Both the position numbers and the translations under genes were made by a program. A stretch of DNA of 10,561 nucleotides from Candidatus Hydrogenedentota bacterium (GTDB lineage Bacteria; Hydrogenedentota; Hydrogenedentia; Hydrogenedentales; SCBR16-9), in the NCBI GenBank assembly GCA_007116095.1, contig SKJD01000281.1, positions 1 through 10,561 on the forward strand. Reading direction: 5' to 3'. Positions 1,562 through 10,561 of this stretch are shown piece after piece (within the stretch, counting starts at the first letter, position 1; each line of letters begins with the position of its first letter). Under the pieces are notes generated by a model. The model was given only the letters and a program-made list of their open reading frames with translations. It did not search any database and had not been told where the DNA came from.

Positions 1562-1996
1562 CTACCCCCCGCCCCGCTTCTGCCCCTGTAAATAGGCCTC
1601 CAGGATATGCGTGGCGGCGATTTTATCCACGACATTTTTGCGTTTGTTCCGGCGCATGTTGGCGTCGATCAGCATGCGTTCCGCTCCCGCCGTGCTGTAG
1701 CGTTCGTCCTGGCGGTAAACTGGAACACTGATACGCGGTTCCAGGGCCTCGATAAAACGCTCGATCTTCTCCGCCTGGGGTCCCGGCTTGCCTTCACGGT
1801 CCAGCGGGATGCCGACAACCAACAGCACCGGCTCCAGCTCCCGGGTCAGTGCGGCAACCCGGTCCAGGGCCGCCTCCAGGGATTTTTCCTTCACCACGCA
1901 ATGGGGCGAGGCGATAATTTGCATGGGATCAGTGACGGCGACGCCGGTGCGGACCTCGCCGACGTCCAGCGCCATAATGCGCCCGGGCATAGTCAT
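1562..1996 (-). CDS. ruvX: Putative pre-16S rRNA nuclease / Holliday junction resolvase-like protein RuvX (YqgF)
   Basis: This 144-residue protein has an RNase H-like fold. Members of the family act in the cytoplasm on the 5' end of pre-16S rRNA and were first described as Holliday-junction resolvase homologues. Visible motifs in order are ALDVGEVRTGVAVTD (residues 9-23, catalytic Asp11), LLVVGIPLDREGKPGPQAEK (58-77), DERYST (97-102, with Glu98) and VDKIAATHILEAYL (123-136, catalytic Asp124). Length and motif spacing are normal for the family. The frame stays open up to 2071, but that longer start would put the terminator hairpin at 2017-2042 inside the gene. ATG 1996 lies 10 bases downstream of GGAGAG (2007-2012) and ATG 1990 is the alternative. 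No separate promoter is obvious, so expression may depend on read-through or on a weak promoter near 2000-2080. Confidence 0.93.
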   Translation of the reverse strand: MTMPGRIMALDVGEVRTGVAVTDPMQIIASPHCVVKEKSLEAALDRVAALTRELEPVLLVVGIPLDREGKPGPQAEKIERFIEALEPRISVPVYRQDERYSTAGAERMLIDANMRRNKRKNVVDKIAATHILEAYLQGQKRGGG

Positions 1997-2012
1997 GGTT
2001 TGGGTACTCTCC

Positions 2013-2042
2013 AAAAGACCGACACCGGAGAGGGTGTCGGTC
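2013..2042 (-). terminator. Intrinsic terminator between the exported hydrolase gene and ruvX
   Basis: A perfect 10-bp stem (gaccgacacc / ggtgtcggtc, 2017-2042) with a 6-base loop is followed on the minus strand by TTTT (2013-2016). It lies 45 bases past the stop codon of the upstream gene. The T tract is short, so termination may be partial and allow some read-through into ruvX. Confidence 0.75.
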
Positions 2043-2087
2043 GGGTTGGGTGCGGACAGATGCTGCAACACAATGGGTCTTGTGGCC

Positions 2088-4679
2088 TCAGCGGCGTTGG
2101 GCGGTCATTTGCAGCTCGTAGACCGGTTGTTCCAGGCGGATGAGCATCGGGTCGAGCGAGTCCAGTTTCATCGGGAATTTCACGTCCCGGCCCCGGATCA
2201 GGTCGCGTCCGCTGTGCAGGTTGCCGGCCAGATGCGAAACGACCGGGTCCTTGCGGACATTGAGGACGTAGAGGTAACTCTCGCCTTCATGGTGTACCAG
2301 GCGCGTCTTGACCCCTTCCAGCGGGTAGCCGTGGGCATTGGTGGGCCGGGCGATGACCGGTAGCGCGCCCAGTATAATCGCCGCATCCATGGCGTGCAGA
2401 TACTCGGTGGACTGGTTGGTGCCCCGGACCAGCACGGTCTTGCCGCTGCTCGGCAGGACTTCCGTGCGCGATTGCCCGTGGGGCGTGTACGGAATCGGGG
2501 TCCCGGCCCGGCAAATGGCGCCGCCGTCCAGGATATACTGGTGAATTTTGTCGAAAGTCTCATTTTCCAGGGCGGGGGTTTCCGGCAGGATAAGTATCTT
2601 GATGTCGTCCAGGACCCCTTCCTGAATCTGCGACTCGGTGAGAAAGCGCACGGTGTAGCCTGCGAAACTACTGCCTTCGAAGGCGTTCCAGGCGGAGCTG
2701 AGGTGCTGCAAGCCATCGTCGAAAATCTTGGAGGAACCGCTGAAGAGAATACCGACATCGGTCGGCGCATTGTGAAAGGCCCCCACGATGGGGGCCAGGC
2801 GGTTGATGTCGTAGTTAGCCACGGCGAGGGCTTCGAGGGTTTCCGGCTGCCGCCATACTTCGCTCTTCGCGTCTATCGCCATGGCGTTCAGGCCGGCGAT
2901 GGCGCCTTCCCAGACCAGGCTGTTCACGAAACGATAGGCCTGTTCGGAATCCATCACCGCCGTGTCCTGAATTTCGGCGTTCAGGTCCACCATCATGCTC
3001 TGCGGATTGAAGGACTGTTGCAGGGCATAGTGAATGCTGGCGCCCGGGAAGTCATAGGCGTAGACTCCGGACCGCGGACGCGACTGTGTGGCCAGGCTAT
3101 TGATGGGCATGCGCCGGGACAAGGTCTCCCGGTCCAGGTTAAAGCGCGTTTCGCCCAGTTCAAAGGCGGTTGCGCTTTGCGGCAGCACATAGTGAATCCG
3201 AGGGGCATGGCTGCGGGACTGTTCCAGCAAGTCGCCGACATGCGATTCTATGAAGCGCCGGTGGAACTGCTGCCAGTCATACTGATAGGCGCGTCGGTTC
3301 TGGTAACCGTGATCCGGGTGATCGCCCCAGATCGTGATCTCGTCGTGGGATGCCAAGTGGCCGCGCCAGTTCGCGTTGAGCTCCATGCGATCGGGATAGC
3401 GGCTGCGAATATGCTCAATGAACAACTGCCTAATCCGCTCGGTGTCGAATTTATACCGGGCTTCATCCAGCAGCGAGGCCGCAATCACCTGCGGCGACTG
3501 GCCGAGCACGGGCAGCACCTGTGACAGGTGGTCTTTGAACAGGGCCTGGTATACCGGGTGGGCGTGGTTGAGGAAGCCTTCGGTAATGAGGTCCGGCCAA
3601 CGATCAAGCATCCAACCTTCCGGAATGCGGGAATCCAATTGGGGAATGACCGCCAGATTCAAGGATTCCGCAGTGCGGAGGTAGTCCTGAATCGCCTGCT
3701 GCACGGGGCGTGGCGCGTTCGGCCCAGCCATGCTGCGCCCCGGTGGGATTTCCGGGACCGCCAACTGCAACCCAAAACGTTTCAGGCGCTTCAGGGTCTC
3801 GACTTCGTCCAGCGCATGGCGGGCTCCGAGCAGAAATATGGGCGTCTGCCCGAGCATCAGTTCATTCGCTTCCACCCGCGCCTGGCTGACATCCACATCC
3901 GAGCGCGCCTGCAAGCGCTCCGGACTCAGGCTGCTGAAAACATACTCGGCGTTGATGGAATTGGCGGTATGGGTCAGTCGGTTCAGCAGCGGGTAGGCTT
4001 CGCGCCAGACCTGCTGGTCCACCAAGGTGCGCGCAAGGGGGACAAATTCCTCGATCAGGGCCAGCTTGATCTGGAAGTAGGGGTAGGCGCCGGAGCTATC
4101 TCGGGAACTATCCAGTTGGTTGGCTATGGCGGTGTGGAGGGTTTCCAGTTCGTTTAGCTTCCGCTGCATCTCCGCCCTGGACACCTTCACAAAGGGCAGC
4201 GTATACCGGGCGGCGGCGTCCAGGGTGGTGTAATTCACCCGAAACGAGGCCGTATAACGCGCCGGCTCCAGCCCGGATGCATCCCATTGAATAACACATT
4301 CGTTGTCGCCGGGGTATAGGTCCATCCGCAGATGGCCCTCGGCCTGGGTGTTCCCCGCCGCATCCCGGATGGTCATGAAGATGTAGACGTCCCGGAACCG
4401 GATGTCACTGTCAATGTGCAAGACAAAGCGCAGTAGGTTGCCATCCTCGGGCAGATGATTCCCGGCGGCTTTCACCTGCACCTGCTTGGCGTCTTGCGCA
4501 TAGCCGGCGTCGAACCAGACTTCCTCGGAAAAGGAGCCAGCCGGGGAATGCGTGGGCCCCGGTATGGGTGGTGATGCATTCAGGGGGGTGTGCCCGAGCA
4601 GCAACCAGCCGCAAAACAGCAGCCAGGTTGCCATACTAAGGTGGGAAAGACGGTTCCTGGACAGGCCATACCTAGTCAT
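2088..4679 (-). CDS. Exported GH42-like (beta-galactosidase clan) glycoside hydrolase-related protein
   Basis: This is an 863-residue protein. ATG 4679 follows GAGAG by about 7 bases; the frame opens further only through a TTG at 4712. A signal peptide spans residues 1-36 (hydrophobic 16-35, LNAS cleavage area). Residues 45-165 look like a beta-sandwich, 165-245 is helical, and 275-610 suggest a TIM barrel with LLDEARY (403-409) followed by an ERIRQLFIEHIRSRYPD helix, the order seen in GH42 enzymes. Residues 640-725 (DVGILFSGSS, then IKILILPETPALE and YILDGGAICRAG) resemble the beta-galactosidase trimerisation domain, and the C-terminus is beta-rich. The usual GH42 acid/base Asn-Glu is Asp-Glu (405-406) here; Glu569 in VDLNAEIQ is a possible nucleophile. 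The likely site is the periplasm or outside the cell, on polysaccharide. The substrate cannot be read from the sequence, and it may be a non-catalytic relative. Confidence 0.85.
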   Translation of the reverse strand: MTRYGLSRNRLSHLSMATWLLFCGWLLLGHTPLNASPPIPGPTHSPAGSFSEEVWFDAGYAQDAKQVQVKAAGNHLPEDGNLLRFVLHIDSDIRFRDVYIFMTIRDAAGNTQAEGHLRMDLYPGDNECVIQWDASGLEPARYTASFRVNYTTLDAAARYTLPFVKVSRAEMQRKLNELETLHTAIANQLDSSRDSSGAYPYFQIKLALIEEFVPLARTLVDQQVWREAYPLLNRLTHTANSINAEYVFSSLSPERLQARSDVDVSQARVEANELMLGQTPIFLLGARHALDEVETLKRLKRFGLQLAVPEIPPGRSMAGPNAPRPVQQAIQDYLRTAESLNLAVIPQLDSRIPEGWMLDRWPDLITEGFLNHAHPVYQALFKDHLSQVLPVLGQSPQVIAASLLDEARYKFDTERIRQLFIEHIRSRYPDRMELNANWRGHLASHDEITIWGDHPDHGYQNRRAYQYDWQQFHRRFIESHVGDLLEQSRSHAPRIHYVLPQSATAFELGETRFNLDRETLSRRMPINSLATQSRPRSGVYAYDFPGASIHYALQQSFNPQSMMVDLNAEIQDTAVMDSEQAYRFVNSLVWEGAIAGLNAMAIDAKSEVWRQPETLEALAVANYDINRLAPIVGAFHNAPTDVGILFSGSSKIFDDGLQHLSSAWNAFEGSSFAGYTVRFLTESQIQEGVLDDIKILILPETPALENETFDKIHQYILDGGAICRAGTPIPYTPHGQSRTEVLPSSGKTVLVRGTNQSTEYLHAMDAAIILGALPVIARPTNAHGYPLEGVKTRLVHHEGESYLYVLNVRKDPVVSHLAGNLHSGRDLIRGRDVKFPMKLDSLDPMLIRLEQPVYELQMTAQRR

Positions 4680-4782
4680 GTTGTTCTCTCTTGATCTGTG
4701 CTTCGTATCCAATGATTTTCAACATAATAACGTGCTGCAGCGTGACCGCCTTTAACGATACCGGCCACGAATGGGTGTTACG

Positions 4783-4810
4783 ATTATACGGGACACTTAC
4801 GTATTGTATA
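4783..4810 (-). promoter_or_regulatory. Candidate sigma-70 promoter for the exported hydrolase gene
   Basis: On the minus strand a TATACA -35 box (4805-4810, 4 of 6 consensus bases) stands 16 bases before a perfect TATAAT -10 box (4783-4788). Transcription would start near 4776 and leave a leader of about 97 bases before ATG 4679. Confidence 0.55.
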
Positions 4811-4817
4811 CCGTTGC

Positions 4818-4834
4818 GGCGGCTGCATGCCGCC
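4818..4834. other. GC-rich hairpin upstream of the minus-strand promoter
   Basis: A perfect 6-bp stem (ggcggc / gccgcc) encloses tgcat, immediately upstream of the -35 box at 4805-4810. It could be an operator or a remnant of a repeat. The stretch that follows (4840-5060) shows no convincing gene. Confidence 0.35.
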
Positions 4835-5128
4835 ATAATCCCAACGCGTTACATCGTACCCCAGAACTTGTCCCGTATTAAACCCCAAAACGGCTTTCTG
4901 GAGCGCCCGCCGGGGAAATCTCGTGGTCCAGGCGCGGATCAGGGCTAGATTCAGGGCGATTCTGTGCGGGAAACGCATTGCAAGCAGCGCCCGCAATACC
5001 CCCAAAAAGACACACAAACCCCGCCGAATTGCCAAGCGAAACGGCCTTTTTTGAAACATTGTTGACAGTCCGGGGTATTAACCAGTAGGGCATGTATCAT
5101 ATGCGGGCCGGGGCTACCATGCTTCGAT

Positions 5129-5140
5129 ATAACCGGTTAT
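5129..5140. promoter_or_regulatory. Perfect 12-bp palindrome ataaccggttat, possible operator
   Basis: This perfect palindrome sits in the divergent intergenic region about 90 bases before the plus-strand -10 box at 5228. Such short symmetric sites are typical for dimeric regulators, but the regulator is unknown and chance occurrence is possible. Confidence 0.3.
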
Positions 5141-5203
5141 GCGTCAATCCGGGCCACACAGCTATCCCAAGTGGTATCTCAAGGCGAAAAAATTTGAATG
5201 ATT

Positions 5204-5233
5204 CGGAAACTTTTCCGTTTTGCCCTGTATAAT
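5204..5233 (+). promoter_or_regulatory. Candidate promoter with inverted repeat over the -35 position
   Basis: A perfect TATAAT (5228-5233) lies about 110 bases before the OmpH-like gene. There is no good -35 hexamer at the correct distance. Instead the perfect inverted repeat CGGAAA-CT-TTTCCG (5204-5217) covers that position. This layout suits a regulator-dependent promoter, with an activator or repressor bound at the inverted repeat; the control is inferred. Confidence 0.45.
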
Positions 5234-5281
5234 AGAGTGAGTAGGCCGCTTACAAGATGCGGTATTGATATTTGGAGTTTC

Positions 5282-5295
5282 GGGGTTATTACCCC
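5282..5295 (+). other. Small leader hairpin
   Basis: GGGGT-TATT-ACCCC forms a 5-bp stem in the putative leader of the OmpH-like gene and is followed by AAAA. It may affect transcript stability. It lacks a T tract, so it is not an obvious terminator. Confidence 0.3.
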
Positions 5296-5344
5296 AAAAT
5301 ATATGAAAAGTGATGGGTATACAATGAGAAATGGCAGGTGGGCC

Positions 5345-5761
5345 ATGAATACTATTTGGATACGGACAATCTGTTTCTGCGTCGTTTTGCTGTTGGGACT
5401 TTCCGGTTTGGCGCTGGCGAGCTATTCCATTCCGCAGGAAAGCATAGACGAACAACGTATTTTTTACGGTTCCGCCTTGAATTTCGCCCAACCGGCAAGT
5501 GTGGATTACCAGAAAGTCGTGCGCTCCACGCCGGAGTACAACGAGATTCGGGACAAGCGGATCGAGAACGGAACAGCACGCTATTGGATTCTCATGAGCG
5601 AAGCCAGCAACCATGCCGTGCAATTAATCTCCTCGGTGGGGAAAGAATCAGACTACGACATCATCGTGGCAAACGGCTACCTGGAAGGCCTCGAAGAGCC
5701 CATAGAAACAGTTGATGTGACAGAGCTCGTGCTCAAAAAGCTGGAAGAACGGCAGAAGTAA
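5345..5761 (+). CDS. Small exported OmpH/Skp-like protein
   Basis: This 138-residue protein has a signal peptide at residues 1-25 (IRTICFCVVLLLGLSGLALA, cleavage before SYS). Residues 53-65 (VDYQKVVRSTPEY) and 103-135 (DYDIIVANGYLEGLEEP, then VDVTELVLKKLEE) match the start and end pattern of OmpH/Skp periplasmic chaperones, in which a 'vDmqkvl..s..y' strand opens the fold and 'yDlVl....vDiTdeVlkaL' closes it. The long coiled-coil arms of Skp are missing, which explains the short length. I chose ATG 5345 because it precedes the signal peptide directly and follows AGGTGG; the frame extends to ATG 5198, but that start lies upstream of the -10 box at 5228. It may assist outer-membrane protein assembly for the downstream secretins. 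The family assignment is my motif reading and is not certain. Confidence 0.75.
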   Translation: MNTIWIRTICFCVVLLLGLSGLALASYSIPQESIDEQRIFYGSALNFAQPASVDYQKVVRSTPEYNEIRDKRIENGTARYWILMSEASNHAVQLISSVGKESDYDIIVANGYLEGLEEPIETVDVTELVLKKLEERQK

Positions 5762-5860: not shown

Positions 5861-6928
5861 ATGAATTATTTTCAAGCAAAGCACTTGCCGGCGCGCATGC
5901 GTGCTGCGTGCAAGATGCCGGGGGGTATTGTGCAGTCTTATCGATCGTTGTTCCTGACGATCCTTCTGGTCGTTTCAGGCCTGACGTTCGCGGGTTGTAT
6001 TGTCAACGGCGGGGACATCGCTCCGCCGGTAGGCGTAAACACCAACCCGGACAACGCCACCTCCAACGCCGGCTACGCCAACCGCGAGCTGAACAATGCC
6101 CGTCGGATGATCCGTGCGGGGGACTATTCCCAGGTCATACCACGTCTTACCAATGTGGTGTCGACGTACCCGGACTCCCCTTCGGCGATCGAGGCCCGGT
6201 ATTATCTCGGGGTGACCTATAAAGAAATCGGCGGCGTACGCAACGCCATGGATTTCTTTAATGAATATCTGGAGATGGCCCCGGACGGCCCTTATGCCGA
6301 GCACTCCCGTCAGTACCTGACGATGCTCTCGGATGAGGCGCGCCGGGATCCGCGGAACCCGGCGCACCTGGAATCGCGGGTGGATGAGTTACAGCGGCGG
6401 CTGGATGAAACGCCCGAGGATTTGGCGGCCCAGTTGGAACTGGCGGATACGTACTGGCGGCAGGAGCGCTACAACGAAGCAGGCCTGCTTTATAGTCGCA
6501 TCATCCGGGAACTGCCCCAGATGCAGGCGGATCAGACGATCCGGCAGCGCCTGGACCGTGCCGATGACGGGACGTTCATCATCCTGACACCGGACGAGGT
6601 GTTGCGGCGCGAGACAGAATCGCAGCCGATATTGGTCTTTAACACTTCTTCGTTCAAGAGCGGCCGTTTCGAAGGTTGGCCGGCGGTCTCCCGATACCGG
6701 TATTACAATGTGACCGGACAAATAGTGAACCGAAGCAATGAAACTTTTAGCAACGTTCAGGCTATAGTAACCATATACGGTTTTGGCAATCAGATCTATG
6801 ACACCACCACCGTGAATGTGGGCAGGATGCACTCGGGTGAAACCCGTCCATTCAGTGTGCGCTTCTCGAACTTTGACGACATACAAAATGTGTCGAAATA
6901 TGAGACGGATGTCAGCTACCAGCAGTAA
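5861..6928 (+). CDS. TPR lipoprotein with C-terminal FxLYD-like domain
   Basis: This 355-residue protein is probably anchored in the outer membrane. A hydrophobic segment (SLFLTILLVVSGLTFAGC, residues 29-46) ends in a lipobox with Cys46 as the acylated residue. Residues 70-150 form TPR-type helix pairs (ARRMIRAGDYSQVIPRL, then EARYYLGVTYKEIGG and AMDFFNEYLEMAPDGPYAE), and a further pair lies at 190-220 (AAQLELADTYWRQERYNEAG). Residues 280-350 (YNVTGQIVNRSNETFSNVQ, then VGRMHSGETRPFSVRF) match the FxLYD beta-sandwich pattern. ATG 5861 is preferred because the promoter predicts transcription from about 5796; ATG 5897 is possible, and the ribosome site is weak in every case. Only 4 bases separate it from the first secretin gene. 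TPR lipoproteins act as secretin pilotins in type IV pili (PilF/PilW) and as assembly factors (BamD), so a pilotin or scaffold role is a reasonable inference. Confidence 0.88.
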   Translation: MNYFQAKHLPARMRAACKMPGGIVQSYRSLFLTILLVVSGLTFAGCIVNGGDIAPPVGVNTNPDNATSNAGYANRELNNARRMIRAGDYSQVIPRLTNVVSTYPDSPSAIEARYYLGVTYKEIGGVRNAMDFFNEYLEMAPDGPYAEHSRQYLTMLSDEARRDPRNPAHLESRVDELQRRLDETPEDLAAQLELADTYWRQERYNEAGLLYSRIIRELPQMQADQTIRQRLDRADDGTFIILTPDEVLRRETESQPILVFNTSSFKSGRFEGWPAVSRYRYYNVTGQIVNRSNETFSNVQAIVTIYGFGNQIYDTTTVNVGRMHSGETRPFSVRFSNFDDIQNVSKYETDVSYQQ

Positions 6929-6932
6929 TACC

Positions 6933-8141
6933 ATGAATGCAATACCTATGACAGCACAAAGCATGCAACGCAAGGCAATCATCCACCCGGTAAGCAGACG
7001 TCGATTTAACGGCGATGCGGTTAAATACCGTATGGGGGTGTTGGCCGTTGCGTCTTCGGTAATCCTTTGTATCATCGTGTTGCTGGCGGCTTTACCTGCG
7101 GTCGCCCAGCAGGAACAGGTGAATGTTTCTGTCAAGATTGTGGAATTCCAAACCATCAGCGGAGTGGAAACCGGGTTCAGCGCCTATTACCGGCAACGGG
7201 AAATCCCGCAGCCGTATGGACGGGCGAGTACCGGCCAGGGAGCCATCTCGGAAGCCGACCTGACCTTCCCCACCCGTTCCAGCTCGGGTATCACGGTTTT
7301 TCTGGACCGGCTGAGCGGGCGCCATGGCGACTATGAAGTCGTGTTGCAGGGTCTGGTGTCGAAGAACCGGGCATTCATACTCTCCCGCCCCAAGGCCATG
7401 GTGGTGGTGGGCCAACCCACGCCGACGGTGATTCAGACCGTACAACAGGTGCCCTATGTAAACAAGGTCGTGGTGGGTTCTACCGCCGTACAGACAACTT
7501 CATTCCGCAATACGGGGGTGTCACTGTCGGTCATGGCCGAGCAGATAGCGGATGATGACGGGGACTTTACCACCAATGACGATACATACATCAAACTCAA
7601 CCTGACGGCGGAAGTGAACGAAGAAGGCCAACGCATCAATGTGGCGGTGGAAGACTCCGAAGGCCTGCTCGGCCAGCGTTCCTCCATCAGCGTGCCGGAA
7701 TTCGTCACCCGCAACATCACCACCTCCGTATGGGTGCGCCATGGGGAGGTCCTGGTCCTGGGCGGCTTGTACCGCAACACGAAAAACAAAGACTTGAGTA
7801 CCCTGCCCTGGTTGACCCAGGGGTCGGACATTGTCCAGGGAGCATTTCAGCGCATGACGCCGTTCATGACGCCTTCCATCCCGATAACAGCCGGTTTGGG
7901 CGGTCAGCACACCAGTGAAGGACGCCGCGAGCTGGTCTTCCTCATTAAAGCGGAACGCTGGCGTCCGGCTTTTACGGTTGCCGGTGATTTCGGTTTTGAC
8001 GAAGAGGAAGATGATGGCCGGCGGACACGTCCGTCCGACGTAATAACAGGCGTCATTGAAGGTATAACCGATATATCGGAAGGCCTGGGTGGGCTTTCCG
8101 GCGGCGATGTCTCCTCTAGTTTGGGCGGAGAAATCCGATGA
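6933..8141 (+). CDS. Divergent secretin-barrel protein, first of a pair
   Basis: This 402-residue exported protein has a hydrophobic signal at residues 34-58 (ILCIIVLLAALPAVA, cleavage before QQE). The mature part starts directly with the secretin-domain pattern: VNVSVKIVEFQ (63-73), LSRPKAMVVVGQPTP (150-164), VPYVN (173-177), NTGVSLSV (193-200), TYIKLNLTAEVNE (218-230), then VWVRHGEVLVLGGLY (266-280) and RRELVFLIKAERWRP (331-345). There are no N0/N1 periplasmic domains. The tail has an acidic patch (DEEEDD, 356-361) and a Gly/Ser-rich end. The motifs are looser than in the next gene, and the usual 'PlLG.lF' element is replaced by TLPWLTQG and a longer loop. ATG 6933 follows the preceding stop by 4 bases; ATG 7032 just before the signal peptide and an overlapping ATG 6900 are alternatives. 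It likely forms or joins an outer-membrane ring with its neighbour. Confidence 0.82.
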   Translation: MNAIPMTAQSMQRKAIIHPVSRRRFNGDAVKYRMGVLAVASSVILCIIVLLAALPAVAQQEQVNVSVKIVEFQTISGVETGFSAYYRQREIPQPYGRASTGQGAISEADLTFPTRSSSGITVFLDRLSGRHGDYEVVLQGLVSKNRAFILSRPKAMVVVGQPTPTVIQTVQQVPYVNKVVVGSTAVQTTSFRNTGVSLSVMAEQIADDDGDFTTNDDTYIKLNLTAEVNEEGQRINVAVEDSEGLLGQRSSISVPEFVTRNITTSVWVRHGEVLVLGGLYRNTKNKDLSTLPWLTQGSDIVQGAFQRMTPFMTPSIPITAGLGGQHTSEGRRELVFLIKAERWRPAFTVAGDFGFDEEEDDGRRTRPSDVITGVIEGITDISEGLGGLSGGDVSSSLGGEIR

Positions 8142-9316
8142 CAGGTAGGGTGAAGGCAGAAGTAATGAAGAACACACATCTTGACGATGCGCAATACGCA
8201 GTTTCCGGCGCCCGGTCAGGGGTTACAGGCTTCTGGATACGTTGCCTGGCTGTCTTTCTGGTCTGTTTGCTGGGGCTGAGTGGGGCTGCATTCGCCCAGG
8301 ATGAGGCGCCGCCCGAAGAAGCGCCGCCGGAAGAAGCCCCGCCACCGGAAGAGCCGCCACCGCCTTCGGGACCGGTCGACGTGCGGCAGGTACAAATCCA
8401 GGTCTGGATCAGCGAGACCAACGAAGTCGGCCTGCGCGACATCGGAGCCAACCTCAACTACCGTCGCTTTGTCGATGGCGAAGAGCAGAGCGGTTCGGTG
8501 CAGCAGGTCACGACCAATGTGTTTGATCCGGTGCGGGATTTCCGCCCGGTGACGCTGCCCGTGCCCGATCAGAATTATTTTGCCCCGCCCATGCGCCCCG
8601 ACGAAAACAACAACCTCGGGACGGGACTGCAAGCGCGCGAAGGCTTTGGCCTGGCGGCCAGCGTGGTCGAATCGGACTACGGCACCCTCGACGCCGTCTT
8701 TCGCGCCGCCGAATCCCGCGCCGACGTGGACCTGATTTCCAAGCCAGAGCTGCTGGTCATCAACAATGCCCAAGCCACTATTCGGGCCGGTTCTCAAGTG
8801 CCGTACCAGGATGTCTCCTACCCCCAAGGCACACCGTCACTCAGTGTCGATTGGCGGGATATCGGGGTGAACATGGAGGTGCAACCGACCATTTTACCCA
8901 ACGACTTCGTGCAGCTCAATCTGACCCAGCTCGAAGTAACCGACATCATGCGAATCGACTCCGTCCGGGGCGTGGACCTGCCAGTGATATCCAAGCGTTC
9001 CCAAACCGGGTTCGTCATGGTTCCCAATGGCCAAACCTTGGTGATAGGCGGCCTGTCCAGCCGGGTTGTGCGCCGCACAGAAACCCGAATTCCTATTGTG
9101 GGCGCGCTGCCGCTCCTGGGGATGCCGTTCCGCTCACGCAAGTCGGAGGCCGATGTCACCCATCTCCTGGTCTTCGTTTCGCCGACCATCGTGGACCTGC
9201 GCAACATGCAACATGAGTCCATCAATGCGCTGGAATTCTGGCGGGAACGGGGCGCCGAGTGGCGCAACGCCGACCGCATCGAGCGCGAAATCGAACTCAT
9301 GGAGCAAGAGCTCTAA
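8138..9316 (+). CDS. Secretin-domain outer-membrane protein (type II/III secretion secretin family)
   Basis: This 392-residue exported protein has a signal peptide at about residues 32-53 (CLAVFLVCLLGLSGAAFA, cleavage before QDE). A Glu/Pro-rich linker (56-77) follows, then the secretin domain: VRQVQIQVWISETNEVGLRD (82-101), LISKPELLVINNAQATIRAG (199-218), VPY (221-223), DIGVNMEVQPTI (241-252), GQTLVIGGL (298-306), IPIVGALPLLGMPFRS (318-333) and LLVFVSPTIV (343-352). The C-terminal 40 residues are helical and charged. Secretins form gated outer-membrane rings of 12-16 subunits for type II, type III, type IV pilus and phage export. The N0/N1/N2 ring domains that contact an inner-membrane partner are absent. 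The ATG overlaps the TGA of the preceding gene and follows GGAG by 7 bases; ATG 8165 is an alternative. This is the more canonical of the two secretins. Confidence 0.92.
   Translation: MTGRVKAEVMKNTHLDDAQYAVSGARSGVTGFWIRCLAVFLVCLLGLSGAAFAQDEAPPEEAPPEEAPPPEEPPPPSGPVDVRQVQIQVWISETNEVGLRDIGANLNYRRFVDGEEQSGSVQQVTTNVFDPVRDFRPVTLPVPDQNYFAPPMRPDENNNLGTGLQAREGFGLAASVVESDYGTLDAVFRAAESRADVDLISKPELLVINNAQATIRAGSQVPYQDVSYPQGTPSLSVDWRDIGVNMEVQPTILPNDFVQLNLTQLEVTDIMRIDSVRGVDLPVISKRSQTGFVMVPNGQTLVIGGLSSRVVRRTETRIPIVGALPLLGMPFRSRKSEADVTHLLVFVSPTIVDLRNMQHESINALEFWRERGAEWRNADRIEREIELMEQEL
8304..8370 (+). repeat. In-frame Glu/Pro-rich tandem repeat
   Basis: Three 15-base units encode EAPPE-type pentapeptides and are followed by a Pro-rich run. 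Together they form the linker between signal peptide and secretin domain of the second secretin. Tandem units of this sort can vary in number between strains. Confidence 0.7.
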
Positions 9317-9325
9317 GTACATCCT

Positions 9326-9343
9326 GTGTTTCAGGTGTTTCAG
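9326..9343 (+). repeat. Two 9-bp tandem repeats gtgtttcag
   Basis: Two perfect copies stand in the 58-base gap between the second secretin gene and the beta-helix gene. No role can be read from the sequence. Confidence 0.5.
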
Positions 9344-9354
9344 GTTCGCAGCTT

Positions 9355-9373
9355 CGGCATGGAGGAATTGCCG
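9355..9373 (+). promoter_or_regulatory. Ribosome binding site displayed in a hairpin loop
   Basis: CGGCA (9355-9359) pairs with TGCCG (9369-9373). The 9-base loop carries the near-perfect Shine-Dalgarno sequence GGAGGA (9361-9366), 8 bases before ATG 9375. The strong site fixes the start of the beta-helix gene. Its hairpin placement might tune translation, but the stem is only 5 bp. Confidence 0.5.
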
Positions 9374-9374
9374 C

Positions 9375-10561
9375 ATGTTCCGAACCACCAGCAACCGGAC
9401 CGCCCATCGCGGTCTAAAATGGGAATGTACCGAAAGCGTGTTGCCGGGCATACTCTTGGTTACGCTACTCTGCACCTTAGCGATAATGCCGGCCATCGCC
9501 TATGAAATCTGGGAATTTGACCCTGATATTGTTCAGGGCTTTCCTGTCGGCGATCAAGGCAACGCCGTCATACCTGGCGAGCTGATCATTGATCCCCCGA
9601 CCTTGGAAAACCTGGGCTTTCGATGGTTTATTGAAGGCGATGGTAACCGCAATGCGACTGTGGAAGTAGCTTACCGGGAAGCAGGCGCATCGGAGTGGCG
9701 CGAGGCCCTGCCGATGCTACGTATCAACCATGAGATCGCCGCCCGCTACAACAAACGTCATTTTCGCTCCCCGAATCTATTCGCAGGGAGCGTTTTTAAT
9801 TTAACGCCAGGCGCGTCCTACGAATTGCGTTTTACCATGCAGGATCCAGACGGCGGCGCTCCGGAGGCGTCAATTTATCTGGAAGCCACGACCCGCAAGG
9901 AAGCACAGGCCCCGGATGATGCCCGTATCCTGCATGTATTGCCGCAAGAAGGGGATTCGCTAGCGCCTCCTAGGGAAGGACCGGAAGCAGATGCTGCTCT
10001 GATCTTTCCAGGCCTCATGGAAGCTTATGCCGTCGCGGAACCGGGGGATATCCTGTATCTGCACCCTGGCCTCCATGTGGCGGGTTCCGCGCCCTATATC
10101 TTGACCCGTTCAGGCGAAGCCGGGCGTCCCATCACCTTTCGCGGGGCTGGCGCTGGAGCGAGCATCATCGAAGGCGTTGATCACGAGACCGACCTCTTCC
10201 AACTGCTGGAAGCCCACCACCTGATCTTTGAAGACCTGACCCTGCGACGCGCCCACACGGCGATTCGCACCGGCACACAGACTGGCATCAACATCGAGCG
10301 CGGTGGCCCTGGCGTGGATGGCCTGACGGTGCGGCGCTGCCATATAGCATCGGTTATCAACGGGGTTTGGACGAGCACGGAGCATTCCCGCAACTGGCAT
10401 GTTACCGACAATGTACTTACCGGTCTGGACGAAGTTTGGTATCCGCGGGAACGGGGCGCGTACATGGCCGGATCCCACACCGGGGTGAATGTCTACGGCC
10501 AGGGGCATGTCGTTAGCCATAACCGCATAACCCGTTTCAGCGACAGTCTCGCCATTGCCAA
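9375..10561 (+). CDS. Exported FN3-like / right-handed parallel beta-helix protein (3' end outside window)
   Basis: An open frame of 395 codons runs without a stop off the right edge. The N-terminus has a signal peptide or anchor (VLPGILLVTLLCTLAIMPAIA, residues 22-42, cleavage before YE). Residues about 75-175 form a fibronectin type III-like domain (FRWFIEGDGNRNATVEVAYR, then LTPGASYELRFTMQDPDGG). After a linker, residues 220-395 show beta-helix character: AVAEPGDILYLHPGLH, ITFRGAGAGASIIEG, HLIFEDLTLRRAHTAIR, GLTVRRCHIASVINGVW, WHVTDNVLTGLDE and GHVVSHNRITRFSDS. These Asn-ending short strands are typical of pectate-lyase-like and CASH-domain carbohydrate-binding or depolymerising proteins. 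GGAGGA 8 bases before ATG 9375 supports the start. It follows the second secretin gene by 58 bases, so it may be a substrate of that pore or a surface polysaccharide-active protein. Catalytic residues cannot be judged because the protein is incomplete. Confidence 0.88.
   Translation, partial: MFRTTSNRTAHRGLKWECTESVLPGILLVTLLCTLAIMPAIAYEIWEFDPDIVQGFPVGDQGNAVIPGELIIDPPTLENLGFRWFIEGDGNRNATVEVAYREAGASEWREALPMLRINHEIAARYNKRHFRSPNLFAGSVFNLTPGASYELRFTMQDPDGGAPEASIYLEATTRKEAQAPDDARILHVLPQEGDSLAPPREGPEADAALIFPGLMEAYAVAEPGDILYLHPGLHVAGSAPYILTRSGEAGRPITFRGAGAGASIIEGVDHETDLFQLLEAHHLIFEDLTLRRAHTAIRTGTQTGINIERGGPGVDGLTVRRCHIASVINGVWTSTEHSRNWHVTDNVLTGLDEVWYPRERGAYMAGSHTGVNVYGQGHVVSHNRITRFSDSLAIA

Follow-up and report, generated by a model that had tools for sequence, protein, structure and literature searches.

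A conserved four-gene set of Hydrogenedentota encodes two secretin-domain proteins without detectable N-domains and a possible free-standing outer-membrane complex

Introduction

Secretins form multimeric rings of 12–15 subunits in the outer membrane and, to our knowledge, the known ones are rings of one protein that work together with an inner-membrane machine. In the Tad system assembly of the secretin RcpA depends on TadD, a tetratricopeptide repeat (TPR) lipoprotein that binds to the RcpA C-terminus (PMC10499894). The mitochondrial GspD of some protists still oligomerises and inserts without N0–N3 (PMC8134430), and in the translocon of the type IX secretion system (T9SS) the periplasmic portion is described as an SkpA trimer plus a TPR lipoprotein, with SkpA binding the N-terminus of the channel (PMC10994853). 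Here we analyse a stretch of DNA from Candidatus Hydrogenedentota, in the following called the window, which comprises the entire contig C430 (10,561 bp) of a fragmented metagenome-assembled genome (MAG; 2.79 Mb, 63.7% complete). Its plus strand carries a set of four genes, encoding a small exported Skp-like protein (mini-Skp), a TPR/FxLYD lipoprotein and two secretin-domain proteins, Sec1 and Sec2.

We see about an even chance that these four genes encode one free-standing outer-membrane complex, the secretin ring of which would probably be hetero-oligomeric. The barrel family is already known; the four-gene composition is not named in the literature found on Hydrogenedentota secretins or heteromeric secretins, where a report under other words is possible.

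Results

Sec1 and Sec2 are secretin-domain proteins without N-domains that Pfam detects

The genes for Sec1 (6933–8141, plus strand) and Sec2 (8138–9316, plus strand) are joined by an ATGA overlap of stop and start codon (8138–8141, plus strand). Both products are genuine secretin-domain proteins, and Pfam detects no N-domain in either. The PF00263 profile matched Sec1 with 60.7 bits (profile positions 3–138 of 169) and Sec2 with 123.9 bits (positions 2–169 of 169), at a curated cut-off of 27.5 bits. It was also found at E ≤ 0.01 in all 82 members of the Sec1 family and all 46 members of the Sec2 family, and at the same threshold none of these proteins matched a Pfam N-domain model. The Sec1 alignment consists of 53 of 55 relatives, the window and 28 of the best 120 listed proteins, the Sec2 alignment of 45 of 49 relatives and the window; those of mini-Skp (n = 39; 38 of 39 relatives) and of the lipoprotein (n = 44; 43 of 50 relatives) likewise include the window copy. 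Partial and over-long open reading frames (ORFs) were excluded, as was one Sec2 of poor sequence (L057), and matches of the protein searches are the best 120 of 417 and the best 120 of 388.

Complete secretins of the same genome served as a control for the N-domain models: two of three gave a strong Secretin_N match, one of them together with N0, while a fourth further secretin of the MAG is cut by a contig end. Domain homology begins about 60 (Sec1) and about 80 (Sec2) residues after the start codon, signal peptide included, and thus leaves little room for N-domains. An earlier note on this DNA, made from the letters alone, had described two consecutive secretin-domain genes without N-domains, and the profile searches bear this out.

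The Sec2 profile retrieved secretin structures from the PDB, GspD included, with E-values down to 6e-33. Sec2 has a conserved C-terminal tail (residues 354–392), in which A364, F367, W368 and E384 are invariant across the 46 sequences, and a proline-rich N-terminal stretch. The 30 residues preceding the domain motif have a median proline content of 27% (range 7–60%) in the 37 of 50 sequences in which the motif was found.

Sec1 is a divergent secretin. An AlphaFold2 model of this protein showed the fold of a secretin barrel and matched only secretins in Foldseek (40/40 matches at E ≤ 0.001). Between two of the barrel strands lies a conserved acidic stretch, DDDGD..T..D (7551–7583, residues 207–217), which resembles a metal-binding loop.

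A pore made of Sec2 with Sec1 as a non-pore paralogue, e.g. an assembly factor, a cap or a regulatory ring, would fit the incomplete coverage of the PF00263 profile by Sec1 and the acidic loop of its own, as well as the absence from Sec1 of the P..G..P..G.pFR segment that Sec2 retains. Nevertheless the long strands are present in the Sec1 model, its residues 59–345 align with secretins, and a helix is predicted at the expected site of the amphipathic loop (residues 294–308), albeit with low confidence (pLDDT, the per-residue model confidence, 55–61). We regard a non-pore role of Sec1 as improbable.

The four-gene set is conserved across the order

Sixty-eight genomes of the phylum, all belonging to one order, were surveyed with thresholds of E ≤ 1e-30 for Sec1 and E ≤ 1e-50 for Sec2. 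Sec1 was present in 62 and Sec2 in 59 of them; with a completeness of 90% or more and a contamination of no more than 5% required, the counts were 37/38 and 35/38. Sec2 never occurred without Sec1 (59/59), and in the three genomes with Sec1 only (G016, G026, G053) Sec1 lies within about 200 bp of a contig end on its downstream side. Both secretins are missing in six genomes (G023, G033, G040, G056, G062, G064), only one of which, G033, is more than 90% complete.

Besides the genome of the window, 55 genomes gave a strong Sec1 match, and gene order was tabulated for 49 of these; 4 of 60 genomes had a weak match or none. Wherever the contig continued, Sec2 followed Sec1 immediately (42/42 loci; 7 contig edges). 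The lipoprotein gene directly precedes Sec1 in 46/47 loci (2 edges), the exception being a locus of 2.8 kb (L035) in which none was found on recheck, and mini-Skp lies upstream of the lipoprotein in 40/40 (35 scored and 5 recovered; 9 edges). Of 49 junctions between Sec1 and Sec2, 41 show an overlap of either 4 bp (29 junctions) or 1 bp (12 junctions); some of the junctions possibly represent one genome under two names, and some overlap lengths are overstated by taking the first start codon after a stop as the ORF start. These junctions are tighter than those between lipoprotein and Sec1 or between mini-Skp and lipoprotein. In one locus (L039) the lipoprotein–Sec1–Sec2 triplet is duplicated as a unit.

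Thus, the four genes for mini-Skp, the lipoprotein, Sec1 and Sec2 make up, in this order, a conserved core whose flanks are more variable. Since the arrangement recurs across the order, it is more than chance. The survey of gene order in relatives, proposed in the earlier note, revealed a linkage that is conserved across the order.

Of 14 loci in named genomes, 13 come from Candidatus Hydrogenedentota, Hydrogenedentes or Hydrogenedens. The fourteenth (L041, JAACEL010000297.1) carries the set in a public MAG labelled Nitrospiraceae; its gene content equals that of contig C569 of G054, a genome of the Hydrogenedentota order, and the label is probably wrong.

A lipoprotein and a Skp-like protein precede the secretins

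The lipoprotein gene (5861–6928, plus strand) is separated from Sec1 by a gap of 4 bp. Its product is of pilotin-like build, and the TPR-FxLYD lipoprotein read at this place in the earlier note is borne out: TPR models match, and FxLYD scored 34.7 bits (cut-off 23) and was found at E ≤ 0.01 in 44/44 relatives. Conservation of Cys46 reaches 90% or more. A rough lipobox pattern recognised 37 of 51 lipoprotein ORFs; since the start was wrong in some of the ORFs that it missed, the assignment as a lipoprotein rests on the conserved Cys.

The gene positions of the earlier note were all reproduced in the sequence, as were its 4-bp gap and its ATGA overlap, but the first gene of the set had been overlooked. 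This gene (5345–5761, plus strand) encodes an exported protein of 138 amino acids, for which structure prediction indicates a tentacle-less Skp-like fold: the body fold of Skp/OmpH is present in the model and SkpA is among its structural matches, while the long helical tentacles are absent, no helix of the modelled mature part being longer than that of residues 78–101. A PF03938 scan of the genome did not report mini-Skp and found only a genuine Skp on another contig (C442). Searches of the mini-Skp profile against the PDB gave chance-level matches only, and none of the 39 family members matched NCBIfam.

One mixed ring or two

Pairwise divergence of Sec1 and Sec2 was strongly correlated across 16 loci (r 0.90), and the partial correlation was 0.79 after control for Lnt and MurJ. 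In the same test the partial correlations of the secretins with the lipoprotein were 0.34 for Sec1 and 0.27 for Sec2. With 35 loci and the two helper genes as control, Sec1–Sec2 ranked first of six pairs (partial r 0.69, leave-one-out 0.66–0.73). The remaining pairs gave 0.39 for mini-Skp with Sec1 as well as for mini-Skp with the lipoprotein, 0.30 for lipoprotein with Sec2, 0.05 for lipoprotein with Sec1 and −0.09 for mini-Skp with Sec2.

A FastTree phylogeny of the secretin domains placed Sec1 and Sec2 in separate monophyletic groups that are not sisters, with a support of 0.34 for the Sec1 node, long branches and an uncertain root. Two shorter secretins, L103 and L108, fell into one group with Sec2 (support 0.87). 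An origin of the pair by recent tandem duplication is not supported by this tree, with the same reservations for the Sec1 node and the root.

Two separate homo-oligomeric pores, encoded by one operon and sharing the helper proteins, would likewise agree with a secretin domain in each protein, with two monophyletic, non-sister families and with the existence of loci in which Sec2 alone or Sec1 alone is duplicated. Set against this are the lack of any genome with Sec2 but without Sec1, the conserved overlap of 4 or 1 bp and the correlated divergence of the two proteins. Two such pores appear rather unlikely to us, if still worth considering.

Several observations weigh against a single hetero-oligomeric complex or the evidence for it. 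Pore assembly of bacterial secretins is described as depending on N3 (PMC8134430), which is also counted as part of the secretin C-module (PMC10550240) and was detected in neither Sec1 nor Sec2. The control for the N-domain models is itself incomplete, as the third control secretin (1070 amino acids) shows STN and Secretin_N only below cut-off. The Sec1 model reached only a moderate pLDDT of 68.3, with TM-scores to secretins of only about 0.3, and the likeness of mini-Skp to Skp is weak in sequence (PF03938 20.8 bits at a cut-off of 32.4). One well-assembled genome of the same order (G033, 95% complete) has neither secretin. Two loci carry Sec2 twice (L042, L043) and one has a second, partial Sec1 (L022), so that a strict 1:1 gene dosage is not required. 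Finally, the divergence test is small, and a partial correlation of 0.63 between the lipoprotein and MurJ (control Lnt), for which no contact is expected, indicates that the method is not clean. As the genomes are phylogenetically non-independent, the divergence correlation supports one complex and does not prove it. The hetero-oligomeric secretin suggested in the earlier note has thus gained co-occurrence, conserved overlap and correlated divergence as evidence, which falls short of proof.

The set is additional to type II secretion and type IV pilus machines

Genes for secretion or pilus machines were searched near the set with phmmer (E ≤ 1e-10; 12 ATPase and platform queries from the MAG) and by a scan for pilin motifs. 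In 36 neighbourhoods with a total of 606 kb, some of them cut by contig ends, the searches found only a single ATPase-like ORF, located 8.8 kb away from Sec1, and a single ORF with a pilin motif. Within these neighbourhoods the linked ATPase, platform and (pseudo)pilin genes of type II or type IV pilus systems are thus nearly absent, and membership in such an operon, which the earlier note had named as the finding that would speak against its reading, was rejected on these grounds. The set also differs from a Tad locus: a TPR lipoprotein is present, but there is no N-domain and there are no linked motor genes.

A look at the rest of the genome, also recommended in the earlier note, yielded 10 ATPase-family and 9 platform-family matches. 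The MAG furthermore has four further secretin matches, one of them directly before an ATPase-like gene, and all 30 relatives searched have 4–9 secretin matches each. The set is therefore additional to the ordinary machines, since machine genes are nearly absent from its surroundings and other secretins are present elsewhere.

The machine genes elsewhere in the MAG leave room for a reading in which the pair supplements or replaces the outer-membrane pore of type II or type IV pilus machines. This seems decidedly improbable, given that these genomes possess other secretins, one directly before an ATPase gene, that Sec1 and Sec2 lack platform-docking N-domains and that machine genes are near-absent nearby.

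A secretin of 1070 amino acids (L135) on contig C54 of the MAG (2425–5637, minus strand) carries N-terminal TPR repeats and long glycine/methionine-rich stretches.

Flanking genes

Downstream of Sec2, Lnt was found in 21 of 34 scored loci (2 more recovered), Rnf in 3 and other genes in 8. MurJ often follows Lnt, and Pfam confirmed Lnt, MurJ and Rnf in examples. The loci L073, L075 and L078 have genes of the Rnf complex after the set in place of Lnt.

In the window Sec2 is followed by an ORF on the plus strand (9375–10561), open at the contig end, which has a signal-peptide-like start and no family match in Pfam or NCBIfam. It was matched in only one of 59 other genomes, with E = 2e-4 and over part of its length, and hence lies outside the conserved set. 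Of the view that an exported protein follows the secretins, the signal-peptide-like start has stood up and the membership in a conserved unit has not; the functional link to this protein, taken for a beta-helix protein in the earlier note, finds no support in the single partial match. As relatives almost entirely lack the gene, export of the putative beta-helix protein was rejected as the general role of the operon. The adjacent position, the common strand and the signal-peptide-like start could suggest an operon dedicated to exporting this protein. The next genes in relatives are, however, mostly Lnt, sometimes Rnf or others, and 58 of 59 other genomes gave no match to the protein. Such an exporter is contradicted as a general role; with a local role in this species included, its chance is very slim.

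Upstream, a divergent gene encodes a conserved exported protein (2088–4712, minus strand) outside the core set. Its counterpart, GH42-like in relatives, lies divergently at this position in 19 of 24 scored loci, and 4 more were recovered. GH42 scored above cut-off in two of four relatives scanned and below in the other two, and the window copy showed no clear family. It is adjoined by a RuvX homologue (1562–2071, minus strand; PF03652, 139 bits).

Discussion

The four proteins may form one outer-membrane complex, which Hydrogenedentota would retain as a permanent component of the envelope apart from their type II and type IV pilus machines. The double-walled barrel would be built jointly by the two secretins, which would probably assemble into a hetero-oligomeric ring. 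This ring would probably be escorted and anchored by the lipoprotein in the role of a TPR pilotin, most likely via the conserved Sec2 tail; such a role is suggested by TadD, which binds the RcpA C-terminus and is required for assembly (PMC10499894). Mini-Skp would be a periplasmic structural or chaperone subunit; it may hold the N-termini of the secretins, just as SkpA binds the N-terminus of the channel in the T9SS (PMC10994853). Together, mini-Skp and the lipoprotein might replace the missing N-domain rings. Since platform-docking N-domains and a linked motor are lacking, the gated pore would be fed from the periplasm or serve other machines in common. The more specific picture of a hetero-oligomeric secretin with two obligate partners devoid of N-domains, completed in the periplasm by mini-Skp and the lipoprotein and lacking a dedicated motor, is put forward tentatively, at somewhat less than even chances.

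If this holds true, the set would represent a new outer-membrane conduit typical of the whole phylum. A stripped secretin pair outside the machines, present throughout an order, would show the secretin barrel turned into a free-standing outer-membrane channel, and it would offer a natural case for testing the role of N-domains and the mixing of secretin rings. The combination of a tentacle-less Skp with a TPR lipoprotein would parallel the T9SS translocon and suggests a recurrent build of the periplasmic side of channels. Furthermore, the four-gene set could serve as a marker for a poorly known phylum.

Compared to GspD and PilQ of type II secretion and type IV pili, the set shares the PF00263 barrel and the gate region. 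GspD and PilQ, however, have N-domains as well as ATPase, platform and (pseudo)pilin genes as neighbours, neither of which is seen in the set. The mitochondrial GspD of some protists is likewise a secretin without N0–N3 (PMC8134430), but the set has two secretins, and Sec2 carries a conserved tail. With RcpA–TadD of the Tad system the set has in common a secretin barrel beside a TPR lipoprotein (PMC10499894), and the structure of this pair (PDB 8odn) is among the structural matches of Sec1 and among those of the Sec2 profile. RcpA–TadD is described as part of a pilus system with a single secretin that has an N-domain (PMC10499894), whereas the set comprises two in which no N-domain is detected, as well as mini-Skp; its lipoprotein carries an FxLYD domain, and no Tad motor genes were found nearby. 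The extended T9SS translocon of SprA, SkpA and SprE also unites an outer-membrane channel with a periplasmic Skp-family protein and a TPR lipoprotein (PMC10994853). According to the same source its channel is SprA and not a secretin, its SkpA has full tentacles and a motor is present. The likeness of the set to the T9SS is therefore one of layout and not of channel descent.

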